A program made the position numbers and the translations under genes. A DNA stretch of 22,930 nt from positions 1 through 22,930 of IMG/VR virus record IMGVR_UViG_3300048904_000056; one strand, given 5' to 3'. This stretch comes from a virus. Under the pieces are notes generated by a model. It made no database searches, was not told where the DNA came from, and saw only the letters and a list, made by a program, of their open reading frames with translations. The number at the start of each line of letters is the position of its first letter. The stretch's first letter is position 1. Of this stretch, positions 4,997-12,148 are shown piece by piece.

Positions 4997-5812
4997 TTAC
5001 GATGCAGCAGCAACCGCAACAGTCGGGGCGCTGAATGCCTGTGCGCTACCGCTGGCATTCGACGCACTTACGCGCGCCTGAATGATCTTACCAAGCTGTG
5101 CCGATCCAAGGATCAACGTATTGGCAGTAGCACCGGGAATTGCAACACCACCGGCAAACCACTGGTAAGCGTAGCCAATGACAGCATCACCGGTAAACGT
5201 CCCGTTGCTCAAATTGAGCGTTTCGCCAACTTCCGCAGTGCCGGTAATCGCTGGCGCAACGGTATTGGTAGGGGCAACACCACCAGCGCCGGGATCAACA
5301 ACAACTTCCGGCTGATTGAGCGCAAGCGTAAAAACTTCAAGATCGAAATCTTCATTCTTACCCCCGGGACGGGTTGGGCCGGTGACAAGACCGCGATTAT
5401 AAATCACAGTGCCAATACCACCGGAAACAGCAGGATCATTGCGAACAATCTTGAACGCATAATTCAAGTTTGTCTTCGCAATCTGCCGCATGATGATCTG
5501 GCCGGGATCGGTAGGAATGCGAGCAAATTCCAGCGTCGGTGAACCGGCGTCGGTAATGCCTTTGGCCTTCTGTGTAACGATAGTGTCCCAAGTATCGTAA
5601 TTGAGAATGTTGGTCTTCGAACCGGTTTCCCCGAGATTGCCAAGGGATTTGACTTCAACCCATGTCAAAGCTTCGAAGTCAGCTTGTGCCAGATCGGATT
5701 GCTGCGGCGTCGAACAGACGAAAAGCTTCGAACCGGCATTCGTATTGGCGAACACCACAGGAAGTGCAAAGACGCTGCCCATAAGTGCAGCAACGAAGAT
5801 GGATTTTTTCAT
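4997..5812 (-). CDS. Major tail (tube) protein with signal-like leader and C-terminal Ig-like domain
   Basis: A 271-residue tail tube subunit. The tube domain covers roughly residues 23-170 (NTNAGSKLFVCST, then LEVFTLAL at its end). Residues 180-268 form an Ig-like domain (ITGTAEVGETLNL, YAYQWFAGGVAIPGAT, GKIIQARVSASNASGSA), as often found decorating phage tails. Residues 1-22 look like a bacterial signal peptide: MKKS, a hydrophobic core, then VVFA before NTNAG, which is where homologues would start with Met-Ala-Asn. I chose the ATG at 5812 because AAGGGG lies seven bases upstream; an ATG at 5839 has no such site. No other in-frame ATG near the tube domain has a ribosome site, so the leader should be translated. 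A terminator follows the gene. Confidence 0.85.
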   Translation of the reverse strand: MKKSIFVAALMGSVFALPVVFANTNAGSKLFVCSTPQQSDLAQADFEALTWVEVKSLGNLGETGSKTNILNYDTWDTIVTQKAKGITDAGSPTLEFARIPTDPGQIIMRQIAKTNLNYAFKIVRNDPAVSGGIGTVIYNRGLVTGPTRPGGKNEDFDLEVFTLALNQPEVVVDPGAGGVAPTNTVAPAITGTAEVGETLNLSNGTFTGDAVIGYAYQWFAGGVAIPGATANTLILGSAQLGKIIQARVSASNASGSAQAFSAPTVAVAAAS

Positions 5813-5853
5813 GATAGCCCCTTTTGAGTTTTGAACCACGATTGACCGAACAC

Positions 5854-6282
5854 TTACGGGCGAAAGTCTCTATAACGCAAACTAAGTGGGTAAATCAATT
5901 CCGCGTTGCTGGTTATGATGCCACCAAGATCAGGTTCGCCATAGATTTGCACATCAGCTTCACCCGAGCGAAACCGCGTTTCTTTAGTGAAGTAATTCGC
6001 AACTGTATCCAACAAATGAAGCGGTGGATATGCGCCCTGATCGTCGATTGTCCAATGAAGCAATATGCGAAATATTCCTTGGTAGGTTCGTTCATTGCCC
6101 CAATAATCGCCAATGCGATTGTTTGGAATACTGATGAATTCAAAATAACGTAATGCATCCGGTTTATCCAGAACACGACCGATTGCTTTAATCGGTAATG
6201 GTTGTGCCGGTGCAACAACTGTGGTGTTGATCGCTGCAATCCCACCTTTTTGCAAGGCTGTCAAAATGTCAGTTTCGATCAT
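5854..6282 (-). CDS. Tail terminator / completion protein-like
   Basis: A 142-residue protein upstream of the major tail protein and overlapping the HK97-gp10-like gene by four bases (ATGA). The arrangement neck protein, gp10-like, terminator, tube is standard for siphophages. The sequence fits the alpha/beta fold of tail terminators (gpU-like): an N-terminal helix (ETDILTALQKGG), then an exposed strand-rich region ending with TYQGIFRILLHWTIDDQGAYPPLHLLDTVANYF and a final strand YPLSLRYRDF. These proteins form a hexamer that caps the tail tube and docks to the head. The call is from position and general pattern. Confidence 0.65.
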   Translation of the reverse strand: MIETDILTALQKGGIAAINTTVVAPAQPLPIKAIGRVLDKPDALRYFEFISIPNNRIGDYWGNERTYQGIFRILLHWTIDDQGAYPPLHLLDTVANYFTKETRFRSGEADVQIYGEPDLGGIITSNAELIYPLSLRYRDFRP

Positions 6283-6740
6283 GATTGGTCTGTTGCCCCC
6301 GGTGAACGTCGTTGAATTTCTGCGGTGTTCTTAGACACGATTGTTTGCCAGTTCTGCACGGCGGTCGCGAGAAAGCCGTCAAACGCTTCCCGATACTTTG
6401 CATATTTTGCAGTCCAACCAAAATAAATCGTTTGCCCGAGATTGAAGCCTGATATTTGCGTGATCATTGCTTCGACAGGCTGTGTTTCATAAAGCGGTGT
6501 ATCGTCCGGTTCGTCTGCCGTTCGCTTTCGACCAAGACCGGGGCCGCTTGGCATTCCTGTTAAAGAAGCTTGACCAGATGCGCGTAAAAATCCTGTATCA
6601 ACCCGCATCTTTCCGTCTTTGGCGACTGGCGTTTGTGCTTGGTCGATTAAATCTTGTGTTGATTGCAACACCAATGCGCGCATTCGCTTAACTGTAGCCA
6701 ATACGAATGCGCTTGTTTGTGCTGTTGCCGTTTGTACCAT
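6279..6740 (-). CDS. HK97-gp10-like neck / head-tail joining protein
   Basis: A 153-residue protein with a long N-terminal helix (AFVLATVKRMRALVLQSTQDLI), then PVAKDGKMRVDTGFLRASG, which matches the conserved middle of HK97-gp10-like proteins (helix, then a D-T-G-x-L-R-x-S turn). The later YFGWTAKYAKYREAFDGFLATAVQNWQ corresponds to the usual Y-x-x-x-x-E-x-G end of the family, here with Ala-Phe-Asp. It joins head completion to the tail terminator. It starts with its own ribosome site (GGAAAG) right at the boundary with the plus-strand group, and a GATAAT box lies about 20-30 bases upstream on the minus strand, so a local promoter is possible but unproven. Confidence 0.75.
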   Translation of the reverse strand: MVQTATAQTSAFVLATVKRMRALVLQSTQDLIDQAQTPVAKDGKMRVDTGFLRASGQASLTGMPSGPGLGRKRTADEPDDTPLYETQPVEAMITQISGFNLGQTIYFGWTAKYAKYREAFDGFLATAVQNWQTIVSKNTAEIQRRSPGATDQS

Positions 6741-6770
6741 TCCAAACTTTCCAATCGGTCAAATTATCGA

Positions 6771-6799
6771 TTGATCTTGGTTCACGCATCAGCTACACA
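6771..6799 (+). promoter_or_regulatory. Possible weak promoter for the AAA+ gene
   Basis: TTGATC (6771-6776), a 17-base spacer and TACACA (6794-6799) lie 22 bases before the ATG at 6822. The -35 box fits 4 of 6 and the -10 box 3 of 6 positions. It is the best candidate I see in the 81-base gap between the two divergent genes, but it is weak evidence. Confidence 0.25.
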
Positions 6800-6821
6800 A
6801 AAACAAACATTGTGGGATGTC

Positions 6822-7919
6822 ATGAAAACATACACCGTTGATCAACTGAAGACCATACTTGGTCCACCTGATACATTCGTTCCTAGCAGCAACAATCATC
6901 GCTACTTGAGATTATGGGCACTCGCCATCGGTTTGCCCGATGTCAAAGTGTACGCAATGACGAACGTTGAACTAACAAACCTATACCATGAGCGCGGCGA
7001 CCAGTTCAACAACGGCGATCAAATTCAACGTATTGCATCTGAAATATTTGTTAAAATCGTTGAAACAGTCCAAAGTGTGCAATTCGATCAGCAAACATTG
7101 GCGGAAATTATTCGCGCTGAAATTTCACACATCTTACCGAAACGTTTGGAAGTCATTTCATCACAAGGATCAATAACAATCGAAGGCCCGCTTCATTATC
7201 AAACCGAAAAAGTGATAAAGATTGCAAGCCTGTCACACCCCATTATGCTTGTTGGCCCGGCAGGATGTGGAAAAACAACAATCGGTCAACATACAGCACA
7301 AGCATTGCAACTTCCCTTTTATATCACCAGCACCATCAACGACACACACGAACTGACAGGCTTTGTTGACGGCACCGGAAGATATCACAGAACACCATTC
7401 CGCGATGCTTACGAAAACGGCGGCGTTTGGGTTGCTGATGAAATCGACGCATGGGACGCCAGCGCATTGCTTGCCGCCAATAGCGCTTTGGCAAATGGCT
7501 ATAGTGTATTTCCAGACAACCCATTGCCCGTAACACGTCACCCAAGCTTCCGCATGATCGCGACAGCAAACACATTCGGTCACGGTGCGGATCGTGTATA
7601 TGTCGGGCGAAACGAATTAGACGCTGCAAGCCTTGATCGTTTTGCTACTATCAATGTTGATTACGATTTGAACCTTGAACAATTGTTTGCCAAAGGGAAT
7701 ATGCAGTGGCTTGAACATGTTTGGGCCGTTCGTAAAGAAGTGACGGAAAAGAAAATTCGACACGTCGTTTCATCGCGCGCAATCATCATGGGATCATCAG
7801 CACTCGCAATCGGTTTGAAATGGGATGACGTTGAAGAAACTTATCTGTTCAAAGGAATGAGTACGAAGGATCGGGAAAAGATCGAAATTGACGATCCAGA
7901 CGATAACGTTCCATTTTAG
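6822..7919 (+). CDS. CobS-like / MoxR-type AAA+ ATPase
   Basis: A 365-residue AAA+ ATPase. Walker A is GPAGCGKT (145-152), Walker B is VWVADEID (202-209), sensor 1 is the Asn at 250 in IATANTFG, and the arginine finger region is SLDRF (R273). The insert around AYENGGVW and the RVYVGRNELD segment are typical of CobS/MoxR ATPases. Residues 1-60 form an extra helical domain. CobS is a cobaltochelatase subunit working with CobT and CobN, but no CobN is visible here and phage CobS-like proteins need not act in cobalamin synthesis. A VWA/CobT-like partner lies three genes downstream, as MoxR-VWA pairs usually do. Residues before the ATG at 6822 are Cys-rich and overlap the divergent gene, so I exclude them. 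The ribosome site is poor. Confidence 0.85.
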   Translation: MKTYTVDQLKTILGPPDTFVPSSNNHRYLRLWALAIGLPDVKVYAMTNVELTNLYHERGDQFNNGDQIQRIASEIFVKIVETVQSVQFDQQTLAEIIRAEISHILPKRLEVISSQGSITIEGPLHYQTEKVIKIASLSHPIMLVGPAGCGKTTIGQHTAQALQLPFYITSTINDTHELTGFVDGTGRYHRTPFRDAYENGGVWVADEIDAWDASALLAANSALANGYSVFPDNPLPVTRHPSFRMIATANTFGHGADRVYVGRNELDAASLDRFATINVDYDLNLEQLFAKGNMQWLEHVWAVRKEVTEKKIRHVVSSRAIIMGSSALAIGLKWDDVEETYLFKGMSTKDREKIEIDDPDDNVPF

Positions 7920-7934
7920 GAATATGTTCACAAT

Positions 7935-7963
7935 TTGACAATCGCTATGATCATCGCTATAAT
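7935..7963 (+). promoter_or_regulatory. Consensus sigma-70 promoter inside the plus-strand group
   Basis: TTGACA (7935-7940) and TATAAT (7958-7963) are both perfect and 17 bases apart. Transcription would begin near 7970, followed by GGAG (7980-7983) and the ATG at 7992. It would drive the four genes 7992-10253 separately from the AAA+ gene and suggests use of unmodified host RNA polymerase, as for early genes. Confidence 0.85.
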
Positions 7964-7991
7964 GATCGCGTCATCAATTGGAGCATCGAAA

Positions 7992-8309
7992 ATGGGAAAA
8001 CGAGTAGGTTACGAATGGTGCGTTGAAGTTTACGAAAACAGCAACACCGATACCGCTGACATTATCGACCATACATTTGACGATTGTCTATCAAATCTTC
8101 CTTGGATTTTGCAAGCGAATGAACTTCACGTTTTAATTCGCACGACTGAAGACGGACATCGTTGTTGGGCATATGTTGACGAAAGTAAGATGCTACCAAA
8201 ATATTTTTCCATACCGGAAGCGGACGGCAAGCATCATGAAACTGCAATTCTGGTGCCCCAACGTTTTCATCGGGAAATCGCGCGCGTAGCTTGTGGATTT
8301 CAATCATGA
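7992..8309 (+). CDS. Conserved-looking phage protein of unknown function
   Basis: A 105-residue acidic protein; I do not recognise a family. It begins GYEWCVEVYEN followed by a TADIIDHTFDD segment, has ELHVLIRTTEDG and WAYVDESKMLPKYF, and ends VPQRFHREIARV. The Y-E-W-x-V-E start and the closing VP-x-R-x-H-x-E-hydrophobic element recur, from memory, in small phage proteins of unknown role. I chose ATG 7992 because GGAG sits eight bases upstream and the consensus promoter ends 28 bases before it. Upstream in-frame starts at 7935 (TTG) and 7947-7963 lie within the promoter itself. Its stop overlaps the next start (ATGA). Confidence 0.65.
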   Translation: MGKRVGYEWCVEVYENSNTDTADIIDHTFDDCLSNLPWILQANELHVLIRTTEDGHRCWAYVDESKMLPKYFSIPEADGKHHETAILVPQRFHREIARVACGFQS

Positions 8310-8734
8310 TTGAATGGACATACAGTGACGGCGGGCGCGAACGCGCGGGCTTCAAAGGTGAAACTGGCGATTGCGTAACACGCGCAATCGCTATCGCAAC
8401 ACGTAAGTCATATCGTGAAATTTATGACGACTTAAACCAACTTGCCAAACGCGAACGAACCGGCACAAAGAAAAGCGGTGTTTCGTCCGCACGCACCGGT
8501 GTTTATCGAACCACCTATCAGAAATATCTTTTGTCACTTGGATGGAAATGGAAACCAACAATGATGATCGGAAGCGGATGCAAGGTTCACTTGCGAACCG
8601 ACGAACTTCCGAAAGGTCGCATCATAGTTTCGTTGTCACGTCATTTAGCTTGCGTGATTGACGGTGTTCTATACGATACACATGATTGCAGCCGCGACGG
8701 CACCCGTTGCGTTTACGGGTACTATTACAAGTGA
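8306..8734 (+). CDS. Papain-like (C39-like) fold protein of unknown role
   Basis: A 142-residue protein. ETGDCVTRAIAIAT (Cys23 at the N-terminus of a helix), SLSRHLACVIDG (His113, Asp119) and YDTHDCSR (Asp124) give the Cys-His-Asp order of papain-like and C39-like peptidases. The pattern DGG-R...AG-F-KG-TGDC and the C-terminus RDGTRCVYGYY recur in small phage proteins, from memory, without known function. It overlaps both neighbours by four bases (ATGA at 8306, GTGA at 8731), so it is coupled to the unknown gene before it and the VWA gene after it. It could be an active peptidase or transferase or an inactive fold; nothing here shows its substrate. Confidence 0.65.
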   Translation: MIEWTYSDGGRERAGFKGETGDCVTRAIAIATRKSYREIYDDLNQLAKRERTGTKKSGVSSARTGVYRTTYQKYLLSLGWKWKPTMMIGSGCKVHLRTDELPKGRIIVSLSRHLACVIDGVLYDTHDCSRDGTRCVYGYYYK

Positions 8735-9906
8735 TCATTATTAGCGGCAGAACGTTTGACCACCGCGAACGCCTGAAGAAATTAGGCGCGCGGTGGGATG
8801 CCGACGACAAGACTTGGATGTTGGATTACGCGAACGATGCAGATATGCGCGAATTGCGTTTGATGCCCGGCGTTCAAATCAAAGAAAACAAACCGTCACC
8901 GCCAAAACCAAAACGGCTAGGAACACAAGTACCTGAAGAATTCATAGATCGCTTCTTTGGAAGCGATGAAAGAATAATTCACGGAACTGCAAAGCCTGAT
9001 ATTCACGGCGACGACAAGACTTATCTGAATTATTTTGCACCACAAAACCCAATCGCATATTTTGGTTTTTCCAGTCTGCCGCAACTTGTTCGATATGTTG
9101 AAAACATTCCTGACAAGATCGCACAAGAATGTGCAGATGGAAGAAACGGCGGTTGGGAAATCGGCACCTATGAAACAAGTTGGTCTGGAACAGAAAACAT
9201 GCATCGCGCGATTGATATTGCGCGCAACGGGTGGCCCAAGGGTGTTGATCTGGCATCTGACATCACTGCACACCTACTTGGACGCCACGCTAAACAACGT
9301 CGCCGGAAATATTCGTTGACCGGTGGTGCTGTGTCAGTCGGTCGGCTACTCGCTAACAATCCTGTTCACATGATATCACGACCGAAACAGCCACGATCAA
9401 AAGCAATCACATTGTTTGTTGATGCTGGAATGTCGTCTTCCATCAAGGCCGATCACGCAATTATCCGCACAGCAATGGTTGCTTCAGTGGTGGATATTTT
9501 GGAAATGAACGGCTATAGCTGCGAAGTCATTGCAACGTTTATTAGTGGATCGGCAACCGGCAAGCCGATCATGCAGATGGTAACAACGCTTAAATCAGCC
9601 GGTGAACCTCTTAATTTGAATGATCTGGTATTTGCACTTGGTCATCCATCATATCTTAGACGAATGTTGTTTGCTGTAGCTGCCACTAATGCACGACTTC
9701 GTTCATATTGGCGAACCATGGGAACACCGCAAGCCGTATTCACGAACGATCACCCGACAAAAACAAACGAACTATTCGTTGACAAAATCCATCATGAACT
9801 TAGACAACTTGTCGTTGGTGATACCGATATTGAAAAAGCTTTTTCAATATGGAAACTGACAGTTCGCGACAAACTGCCGATTACTCTAAACGAGGAACAA
9901 CCATGA
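8731..9906 (+). CDS. CobT/VWA-like protein with N-terminal DUF5710-type domain (DUF7192-like)
   Basis: A 391-residue protein. Residues 4-35 (SGRTFDHRERLKKLGARWDADDKTW) match the short DUF5710-type module with K-x-LGARWD...K-x-W. Residues 150-215 (ENMHRAIDIARNGWPKG, then GGAVSVGRLLANNPVHMI) and the core from residue 225 (AITLFVDAGMSSS, then SVVDILEMNGYSCEVIA) resemble a von Willebrand A fold. The metal site is degenerate: DxSxS becomes Asp231-Ala-Gly-Met-Ser235. From memory this fits the phage family DUF7192. It is the likely partner of the AAA+ ATPase. I chose GTG 8731 because it overlaps the previous stop as GTGA; the open frame upstream reads through the neighbouring gene. Confidence 0.7.
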   Translation: MIIISGRTFDHRERLKKLGARWDADDKTWMLDYANDADMRELRLMPGVQIKENKPSPPKPKRLGTQVPEEFIDRFFGSDERIIHGTAKPDIHGDDKTYLNYFAPQNPIAYFGFSSLPQLVRYVENIPDKIAQECADGRNGGWEIGTYETSWSGTENMHRAIDIARNGWPKGVDLASDITAHLLGRHAKQRRRKYSLTGGAVSVGRLLANNPVHMISRPKQPRSKAITLFVDAGMSSSIKADHAIIRTAMVASVVDILEMNGYSCEVIATFISGSATGKPIMQMVTTLKSAGEPLNLNDLVFALGHPSYLRRMLFAVAATNARLRSYWRTMGTPQAVFTNDHPTKTNELFVDKIHHELRQLVVGDTDIEKAFSIWKLTVRDKLPITLNEEQP

Positions 9907-10253
9907 AACTGCTAAGACGAATTATGGACGCGATTTCGGGCGAACCTGATTTGTACGCTCAAACCGATCTTACCAATCACCGTTTAGATATGGATTGGTG
10001 GATAGCTGCCCTTGGTGAAAACAAAAAAATGCCTCGCGTTGGTGATGTTATTATTAAAGTAACATCCTGTGGAATGGGAATGACTGTATTCCGCGATGAA
10101 CGTTTTCGCGTAATCGGGCTGGCGGACCGTCCGGGCGAAGTCCGAGCTATTTGGCGAACACCGGATAATGTGTGTGCCAGAACCGAAACACTTCACATCT
10201 TCAATATGCGACCGCATACTGAATTATATCGCACTTGGTTCTTGATTGATTAG
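9903..10253 (+). CDS. Unknown protein, last gene of the AAA+/VWA group
   Basis: A 116-residue protein with no family I recognise. Its ATG at 9903 overlaps the VWA stop (ATGA) and has GAGG six bases upstream. Visible elements are a basic N-terminal helix (KLLRRIMDAI), an aromatic stretch MDWWIAALGENKKMPRVGDVIIKV, then beta-rich segments TVFRDERFRVIGLADRPGEVRAIWRT, and an end rich in His/Met/Trp. The segment from about residue 45 to 95 reads like a small SH3-like beta barrel (R-V-G-D-x-I followed by strands), but this is only a guess. It ends tail to tail with the MuF-like gene, the stop codons overlapping. Confidence 0.6.
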   Translation: MKLLRRIMDAISGEPDLYAQTDLTNHRLDMDWWIAALGENKKMPRVGDVIIKVTSCGMGMTVFRDERFRVIGLADRPGEVRAIWRTPDNVCARTETLHIFNMRPHTELYRTWFLID

Positions 10254-11275
10254 TCAATATCCGCAAGCCAATCGACTTTGAAACGGGATTTGCAGCGGCA
10301 GTTGATTACTTCACCTGCCGCCGCTCCTAACGATACATCGCCCGGAAACATCAAACGTGATCCATCGGGGGCAATAAACGGTTCATCGATGTTGACGGTT
10401 TGACCTTCCATATCAGCATGATCATCGCGAACGCGATCATCCCCGGCTGTATCCCAAACCTTGCCGACATTCTTACTTGCTGTCGCTCCCATGTCGATTG
10501 CCTGTTTATAGGCTTCATATTCTGATCGATTGAGTGATTGAATTGTTTCCGTTCGCGCGACGGTTTCACCGCGAAGCTTCAAGAGATTGTCTTTATACCG
10601 ATTGATCAGCTTTGTGATTGTGCTTTGATCCAAATTTGTATTGGTATCAATTGCACGTTGAACGATACTGTCAAAGCGACGATCACGACGAACGCGATTG
10701 AAGTAGCGAGGATCAAGGTTCTGCAAGTCAAAAGTTGCGTTTCTTACCCACAATTCTTGCGGTTGGTTCAACCCGATAATCCCGCCCGTCCGATTGCCGG
10801 TTGCCGGATCAATATAACCAACGATGCTTAAGGCCGTATCGCGCGGATTATTTCCTGTTTGTAGCCCGATGGTCATCAGGTTGCGAACATTCACGCGAAT
10901 ATCTTCACCGATGTTTGTAATCAGTGTGCCTGATTGTTGTTTGATCCAATTTTCTGCGCGAACGTTCCGAACATCGAAACGAAAGATCGTTCGACCATCA
11001 GGCGTATTTAGTACCTTGGGAAACGTCGAACCTGTAGCGTCACCGCCTTGTTCAAAGATGTTTTCAATTGCCCGTGTGATCGGGCGCATTGCTGCATCTG
11101 AAAAACCAAGAGTGCGAAACGCGCGTTCGTAATCTTGTTGTTCGATAGCTTTGATCAAATCCTTCAGGATTACATTGTTGGTGATACCTTGAACAGCGAC
11201 AAAAAATGCATCGCGCAAGACCGGCTGAAGCTTTTCAATCAGCGCATCTAAAATCTGTCGCGATGACTTCGCCAT
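10250..11275 (-). CDS. MuF / SPP1 gp7-like minor head protein
   Basis: A 341-residue head morphogenesis protein. The C-terminal Mu F-like region is clear: GETVARTETIQSLNRSEYEA, then VWDTAGDDRVRDDHADMEGQTV, and INCRCKSRF at the end, the usual Cys-containing terminus of this family. The N-terminal 200 residues are helical. Such proteins bind the portal inside the head and may be ejected with DNA. Unusually, the gene lies about 5 kb from the portal gene, on the neck side. It overlaps its upstream neighbour by one base (TAATG) with AGGGG five bases before the ATG, and its stop overlaps that of the plus-strand gene at 9903-10253. Confidence 0.85.
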   Translation of the reverse strand: MAKSSRQILDALIEKLQPVLRDAFFVAVQGITNNVILKDLIKAIEQQDYERAFRTLGFSDAAMRPITRAIENIFEQGGDATGSTFPKVLNTPDGRTIFRFDVRNVRAENWIKQQSGTLITNIGEDIRVNVRNLMTIGLQTGNNPRDTALSIVGYIDPATGNRTGGIIGLNQPQELWVRNATFDLQNLDPRYFNRVRRDRRFDSIVQRAIDTNTNLDQSTITKLINRYKDNLLKLRGETVARTETIQSLNRSEYEAYKQAIDMGATASKNVGKVWDTAGDDRVRDDHADMEGQTVNIDEPFIAPDGSRLMFPGDVSLGAAAGEVINCRCKSRFKVDWLADID

Positions 11276-11749: not shown

Positions 11750-12148
11750 ATGGCAACCCCTGCCGCCACCACCAAAGCCAAGAACGCCCCGCGTGTTGCG
11801 CCTGTCATCACCCCGATCAGCGCCGCACTTACCATGCCGGAACGTGCGAGCAATCGCGGATCGAAGACCATCTATCCTTTCGAACAGCTTCAGGTCGGAC
11901 AGTCGTTTGGCGTGAAGAACAAGAAAGCCGAAAACATGACTTCGATTATCAGCAACCAGAACCGGAAGACGTATCCGGTGAAGGATGCGAGCGGCGCAAT
12001 CGTGATGAAGCCGATCAAAGACGCCGCTGGTGCCGTCATCGGGCAGTCTGCCGATCCTGAAACGTTTTCGAAGCGTTTCTTCGCGGTCGATGTGGACGCC
12101 AAGAAAGACCCTGACGGCGCGACCGTTCGTGTTTGGCGGGAACAGTAA
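11750..12148 (+). CDS. Isolated plus-strand gene of unknown function
   Basis: A 132-residue protein in a single-gene unit with its own leader, a strong ribosome site (GAGAGG) and a strong terminator. The first 40 residues are Ala/Pro/Thr-rich with several Lys and probably disordered. The folded part begins at YPFEQLQVGQSFGVKNKKAENM, continues with SIISNQNRKTYPV and closes with SKRFFAVDVDAKKDPDGATVRVWREQ. The pattern Y-P-F-x-x-hydrophobic-x-V-G-x-S-F, ending with a Phe-containing strand and V-W-R, recurs from memory in small phage proteins without known role. Codon choice is GC-rich like the coat gene, suggesting high expression. It is not clearly structural, because it lies antisense to the late block. 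Confidence 0.7.
   Translation: MATPAATTKAKNAPRVAPVITPISAALTMPERASNRGSKTIYPFEQLQVGQSFGVKNKKAENMTSIISNQNRKTYPVKDASGAIVMKPIKDAAGAVIGQSADPETFSKRFFAVDVDAKKDPDGATVRVWREQ

Follow-up and report, generated by a model that had tools for sequence, protein, structure and literature searches.

The DNA analyzed here is a whole virus stretch of 22,930 bases (IMG/VR record IMGVR_UViG_3300048904_000056, positions 1 to 22,930; hereafter the window), whose minus strand carries the late genes, from terminase, portal, and capsid through to tail. This late operon is interrupted at 6822–10253 by five plus-strand genes, encoding in order an ATPase, a short protein (gene 2), a papain-like protein, a DUF7192 protein, and another short protein (gene 5). 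An earlier note on this DNA had read the five as a self-contained machine with the papain-like protein as its effector. Judged from its relatives, the conserved unit is instead a two-gene AAA+/VWA-like module with passengers, rather than one five-gene machine: the ATPase and DUF7192 genes occur without the other three in all relatives fetched. We consider it likely that they encode an ATP-driven remodelling pair, composed of a MoxR/CobS-like AAA+ ring ATPase and a VWA-like DUF7192 adaptor and held antisense at a fixed site with slots for passengers.

Published accounts of viral AAA+/VWA pairs already exist (PMC7911831, PMC4124505, PMC7824862), as does a description of a cyanophage MoxR (PMC9964418). 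The DUF7192 subtype, which lacks the metal ion-dependent adhesion site (MIDAS), is a new variation on this known pairing; neither the subtype nor the word DUF7192 was found in the limited collection of papers searched.

Conservation of the Pair

Two scans of viral contigs, retrieving loci through similarity to the ATPase, yielded 81 distinct contigs that carry it (the genome of Rhizobium phage P106B, L026, being one of them). A DUF7192 gene follows the ATPase on the same strand in 78; the other three end 186–316 bases past the ATPase, so all contigs long enough to show a partner do show it (78/78). The gap between the two genes is 20 bases or less in 43 of the 78. Given this mode of retrieval, the presence of the ATPase at every DUF7192 locus is partly a matter of construction. 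Searched from the DUF7192 side, PF23822 was found in two of 385 cellular genomes of one class, both times beside the ATPase, and in none of ten genomes reached via papain loci. A scan of cellular genome contigs with ATPase patterns, which reach only near relatives of the window lineage, gave no confirmed relative.

Among named phages, the closest to the window are two of the genus Rigallicvirus, Rhizobium phages P106B and RHph_X2_24 (X2_24), with which the window shares 57% and 56% identity, respectively, in the ATPase and 41% and 39% in the DUF7192 protein; we regard the window as a Rigallicvirus-like phage. Among 11 named phage records examined, nine have the ATPase followed by DUF7192: P106B, X2_24, Tunturi_4, S25-4, Listeria phages AG20 and LP-114, Mycobacterium phage Archie, Gordonia phage Octobien14, and Acinetobacter phage R2096. 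Hidden Markov model (HMM) matches in the last five have E-values of 4e-45 to 6e-16. The other two, cyanophages S-TIM4 and S-RIM2, carry cobS with an upstream "peptidase" that contains DWSGS and has no DUF7192 match, so that partners of at least two types accompany this ATPase family. The label "porphyrin biosynthesis" attached to phrog_249 likewise spans ATPases of two or more types that differ in their partners.

The placement of the pair is equally regular. In the window it lies antisense between the tail-completion/Neck1 gene (phrog_169) and the MuF gene (phrog_3517), bearing out the earlier note's location of the group between late genes, and the identical antisense placement between the same two flanking genes recurs in 26 other loci (27 with the window, counting loci in which both flanks were found and leaving out eight with one flank only). 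Across these 27 loci, all fetched by means of the ATPase, the pair is constant and the passengers vary.

The ATPase and Its Putative DUF7192 Partner

Three of the five genes match protein families beyond chance: the ATPase matches phrog_249 (5e-63), the DUF7192 protein PF23822 (8.2e-41; 140.6 bits, cut-off 27) and phrog_1909, and the papain-like protein phrog_3754 (2.8e-16). The ATPase also matches PF07728 (AAA_5; 2.2e-11; 44.4 bits, curated cut-off 22), and in a PDB sequence search its best match is Midasin (8e-18), followed by CobS and NorQ. Its Walker A motif occupies residues 145–152, Walker B lies in a motif from residue 203, and the Arg finger and sensor 2 are R273 and R319. All 85 aligned ATPases share the Lys of Walker A, the Glu of Walker B, the sensor-1 Asn, the Arg finger, and the Arg of sensor 2, and 81 of them keep the Walker B Asp; we take these residues to have the roles usual for such motifs.

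The DUF7192 model, built with 23 sequences, has a mean predicted local distance difference test (pLDDT) score of 81.3. The first nine rows of its VIA-align comparison are VWA domains of NorD or MIDAS domains of Rea1/MDN1 (Z 6.8 down to 4.4), followed by other VWA folds such as Ku, Rpn10, and TFIIH subunits. In a viral structure library, most of the matches ranked below DUF7192 itself are CobT and VWFA proteins of phages (E 5e-5 to 1e-2). The adaptor thus resembles a VWA protein by the fold of its predicted model alone. The ATPase independently matches Midasin, CobS, and NorQ, so each of the two proteins suggests the same type of couple, in agreement with the earlier proposal of a MoxR/CobS-like ATPase with a VWA-like partner.

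The same note had labelled the partner DUF5710-VWA. The VWA part of that label stands by fold, but the metal site is degenerate, with D231, G233, and S235 at the DxSxS (MIDAS) positions, and the DUF5710-like N-terminus (residues 1–53) scores 21.9 bits, below the Pfam cut-off of 26.5. The full canonical DxSxS is present in only two of 78 distinct DUF7192 sequences; 76 lack the metal site. The DUF7192 protein is accordingly described here as a MIDAS-less relative of phage CobT-type partners.

What the loss may mean is suggested by NorD, whose MIDAS is reported to be required for maturation of the client and dispensable for binding NorQ (PMC9976466). If the metal site serves the client and not ATPase binding here as well, the phage pair could form and the client would be held in some other way. 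Reported NorQD structures have a finger of the VWA domain inserted into the ring pore and the VWA domain rotated by ATP hydrolysis (PMC13036017).

Comparison with cyanophage and halovirus CobS-CobT (MoxR-vWA) pairs shows the same arrangement of an AAA+ ATPase adjoining a VWA protein; the ATPase HMM scores 62–70 bits on CobS of cyanophages, and phage CobT/VWFA proteins are those that rank next to DUF7192 in its fold search. In contrast, the cyanophage partner (two records) is 701–740 amino acids long, lies upstream of cobS, has no DUF7192 sequence match, and carries the MIDAS-like DWSGS, which was read directly from the partner sequences. CobT-type partners are further described as fused to a metallopeptidase (PMC7824862). 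NorQ-NorD and Rea1/Midasin share with the phage pair the ATPase group and the fold of the VWA partner, but NorD has the MIDAS needed for client maturation (PMC9976466), whereas the phage adaptor lacks such a site and belongs to a separate family.

Probable Passenger Genes

In this phage, the papain-like gene and genes 2 and 5 look like exchangeable passengers. The stretches that separate DUF7192 from the ATPase on one side and from MuF on the other vary among Rigallicvirus-like loci from empty (L019, L032) to more than 4 kb (L139), and 49 of the 71 passenger open reading frames have no relative among the others. One passenger family recurs in eight loci and is absent from the window. The slot of L139 (9303–11127), whose ATPase is among the closest to that of the window (64%), holds an integrase and an endonuclease VII, so temperate phages may occur in this lineage. 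A fixed antisense slot with passengers is a place to seek small phage effectors.

Neither gene 2 nor gene 5 matches a family in Pfam, PHROGs, NCBIfam, or PADLOC. In 277 loci, gene 2 has no clear relative (best other match 0.038) and gene 5 has none (best other match 0.7). A tblastn search gave weak matches to gene 2 in two phages (best 7e-5), and no phage match was found for gene 5. The 81 pair contigs contain no papain-like gene and no clear relatives of genes 2 and 5.

The papain-like protein had been recognized earlier from a Cys-His-Asp signature, and both its papain fold and its triad are well supported by its predicted structure and alignment. C23, H113, and D124 are invariant in 41 of 41 sequences. 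The model has a pLDDT of 92.2, and its VIA-align rows are papain-fold proteins (C39, Josephin, staphopain, cathepsins; Z up to 7.3, with 102–125 of 142 residues aligned), alongside a weak Foldseek E-value of 0.09. It is an ordinary member of phrog_3754, with no difference found from the other proteins of that family, which is widespread in phages and present also in bacterial genomes such as those of Pelagibacter and Polynucleobacter. Relatives are encoded in 405 viral stretches and 109 bacterial or archaeal genome stretches, and close relatives are placed within a tRNA array or between unknown genes of large phages. The 84 viral papain loci come from 81 contigs, three of them fetched twice.

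An ATPase or DUF7192 gene is present in only two of 169 papain loci, the window and its own copy (L001); the pair is found in none of the 167 others. On this synteny comparison, by which the earlier note had proposed to recognize chance neighbors, the papain-like gene and the two unknown genes are absent beside the pair in its relatives, whereas the ATPase and DUF7192 genes, staying together in every contig long enough to show it, are not chance neighbors.

Promoter and Predicted Expression

The sigma-70 consensus TTGACA-17-TATAAT at 7935–7963 precedes gene 2 and is the only site in the window, on either strand, that matches at 11 or more of 12 positions; 0.005 perfect sites per window are expected, based on 200 Markov sequences. 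Perfect sites also lie 18 and 21 bases past the ATPase stop in L034 and L139, respectively, and 62 bases upstream of the annotated ATPase start in S25-4. The promoter stretch of L139 can be aligned with that of the window (61 identical positions) and has no relative of gene 2 downstream. Own host-type promoters would imply early or constitutive expression, and the host polymerase probably transcribes the cassette independently of the late programme. Unless there is a promoter within 6741–6821, late minus-strand transcripts that extend from MuF to Neck1 would cross the cassette in the antisense direction. A search of three Kayvirus transcription papers (PMC7698491, PMC9241854, and PMC8952766) for the ATPase by name gave no relevant passage.

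Two inverted repeats were also seen. The promoter spacer of L034 (6169–6197) holds GGGGC...GCCCC, as for a repressor site, and the divergent gap between Neck1 and the ATPase in the window holds CAATCG...CGATTG (6752–6773), which may be an operator or due to chance.

A Model of the Pair and Its Alternatives

On the model of NorQ-NorD, a hexamer of the ATPase would make up the ring on which the VWA-like domain is predicted to sit. ATP hydrolysis would then twist or pull a client held by the adaptor, which would bind it without the usual metal site, perhaps via its N-terminal DUF5710-like domain or other surfaces. The pair is encoded antisense at a fixed position of the late operon, its transcription probably starting from host-type promoters of its own, and the stretches between and after its genes are a slot for exchangeable passengers. 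Tentatively, we favor an intracellular client (the host or a replication complex) over virion assembly.

Several findings weigh against this interpretation. A fixed site inside the structural operon would equally fit a role in virion assembly. The perfect promoter is found in three of the 27 loci and is absent from the other 24. The fold scores of DUF7192 are middling (best Z 6.8, Foldseek E 2e-3). Distances of the ATPase and DUF7192 are correlated (r 0.86 over 71 pairs), but in the 23 loci with structural genes the value for the pair (r 0.71) is no higher than that for the ATPase and the tail terminator (r 0.735; partial r 0.34 versus 0.43), so co-inheritance is shown and not co-evolution; a special co-evolutionary link between the two proteins is given no support by distance correlation.

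The most serious competitor, which we think less likely, is a chaperone that helps to build the tail or head, like p618-p892 of Acidianus two-tailed virus. There, with experimental support for a role in assembly, the viral MoxR ATPase p618 is reported to be a virion component tied to tail growth and to bind the VWA protein p892, which stimulates it (PMC4124505), and a role in virion assembly has been proposed for the MoxR-vWA pair of jumbo phages (PMC7824862). The position of the pair between tail-completion and MuF genes in 27 loci fits such a role. The Acidianus virus is of another kind. Against an assembly role, the structural genes that flank the pair are both encoded on the other strand. 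Elsewhere the pair occupies other settings, next to a nucleotide kinase and MazG in S25-4 and in a block leading to a DNA polymerase processivity factor in Tunturi_4, and the phages that carry it differ in virion type.

It is improbable that the region is a moron-like block that acts in counter-defense through its passengers, with the pair merely carried along. Plus-strand genes with their own 12/12 promoter sequence in a minus-strand operon are marks of a moron-type block, sporadic presence among close relatives being another, and the content is variable, including in L139 the integrase and endonuclease VII; yet the ATPase and DUF7192 are the constant part across loci and hence not the passengers. 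PADLOC returned only weak matches, at the level of the P-loop, to the defense proteins IetA, mad8, and VakA.

Very improbable, to our minds, is a more elaborate version of the remodelling model, in which the pair is a virus-specific MIDAS-less remodeller and a cysteine peptidase has here been recruited beside the adaptor in place of the metallopeptidase fused in CobT-type pairs, such that a motor, adaptor, and protease were assembled twice in different ways.

In many phages, members of this ATPase family bear the label "porphyrin biosynthesis" or CobS, which makes it easy to count them among vitamin B12 genes. One alternative, in keeping with this annotation, is a viral CobST that works with host CobN as a cobalt chelatase and raises the supply of cobalamin; the similarity to CobS is distant. 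Cobalt chelation has been suggested for viral cobST pairs generally (PMC8651126), and a P100-like Listeria phage, which may or may not carry the pair, is reported to raise the host cobalamin cluster (PMC12282133). We nonetheless hold this explanation to be slightly less credible still. The ATPase scores 19.2 bits against the CobS model TIGR01650, far from the cut-off of 558.55, and is not CobS by that standard; DxSxS is missing from nearly all DUF7192 sequences; and the pair is present in Staphylococcus, Listeria, and Acinetobacter phages. CobN was found in none of 198 genomes of the class to which an "uncultured Bacillales bacterium" genome belongs (class name not given; S. aureus outside the search), and there is none in P106B. 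A B12 or porphyrin annotation for DUF7192-type ATPases is therefore doubtful, and the earlier caution that the CobS label not be read as B12 synthesis was justified. That this subtype is paired with MIDAS-less DUF7192 and occurs in phages whose hosts differ widely argues for a protein-remodelling pair.

Least probable of all is the motor-adaptor-protease machine of five genes, which is suggested by the 4-base overlap of the papain-like and DUF7192 genes but is ruled out as a conserved system by the separation of papain-like gene and pair and by the lack of relatives of genes 2 and 5 in the fetched loci. A further hint of a papain link comes from L084 (888–1556), one of the 167 other papain loci, where only 3 bases separate a papain gene from a downstream free-standing gene for a DUF5710-like protein of 60 amino acids; L102 has a second match, distant and weak, and phrog_15863 weakly matches both the papain-like and DUF7192 proteins. 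Recombination at the DUF5710-like domain could have brought in the papain gene. This weak DUF5710-like link and the overlap in one phage are a lead only for tying the papain-like protein to the pair.

Other Features of the Locus

The features of the locus are listed in Table 1. As had been noted earlier, five plus-strand genes are present with four of them chained by 4-base overlaps: three such overlaps link gene 2, the papain-like gene, DUF7192, and gene 5, and the ATPase stands apart, separated from gene 2 by 72 bases. An extension of gene 2 that overlaps the ATPase was not found, 7916–8309 being full of stops in that frame. Gene 5 and the convergent MuF gene share 4 bases, the stop of the former overlapping the end of the latter.

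Table 1. Genes and Promoter of the Antisense Cassette and Its Flanks in the Window
Feature	Position	Strand	Description
Tail-completion/Neck1 flank of late operon	6279–6740	-	phrog_169, 2.1e-16
ATPase	6822–7919	+	MoxR/CobS/Midasin (AAA_5) group AAA+, 365 amino acids
Sigma-70 consensus promoter TTGACA-17-TATAAT	7935–7963	+	Perfect match, 16 bases past ATPase stop
Gene 2	7992–8309	+	Putative passenger, 105 amino acids; no family match
Papain-fold cysteine peptidase-like protein	8306–8734	+	Putative passenger, 142 amino acids; C23, H113, D124; phrog_3754
DUF7192 protein, putative adaptor partner of ATPase	8731–9906	+	391 amino acids, GTG start; PF23822, phrog_1909
Gene 5	9903–10253	+	Putative passenger, 116 amino acids; no family match
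MuF-type head morphogenesis flank of late operon	10250–11275	-	PF04233, 4.5e-12; phrog_3517, 2.8e-105

No Rfam match was found in the window. A second antisense gene within the late operon (11750–12148, plus strand) encodes a DUF7303 protein (PF23978, 9.4e-9); plus-strand genes occupy the matching place in P106B and X2_24 (L002 12725–13216 and L003 12747–13253), the match being one of position only. The major tail protein (4997–5839, minus strand) is extended at its C-terminus by a region with matches to Hoc-like and virion decoration families.

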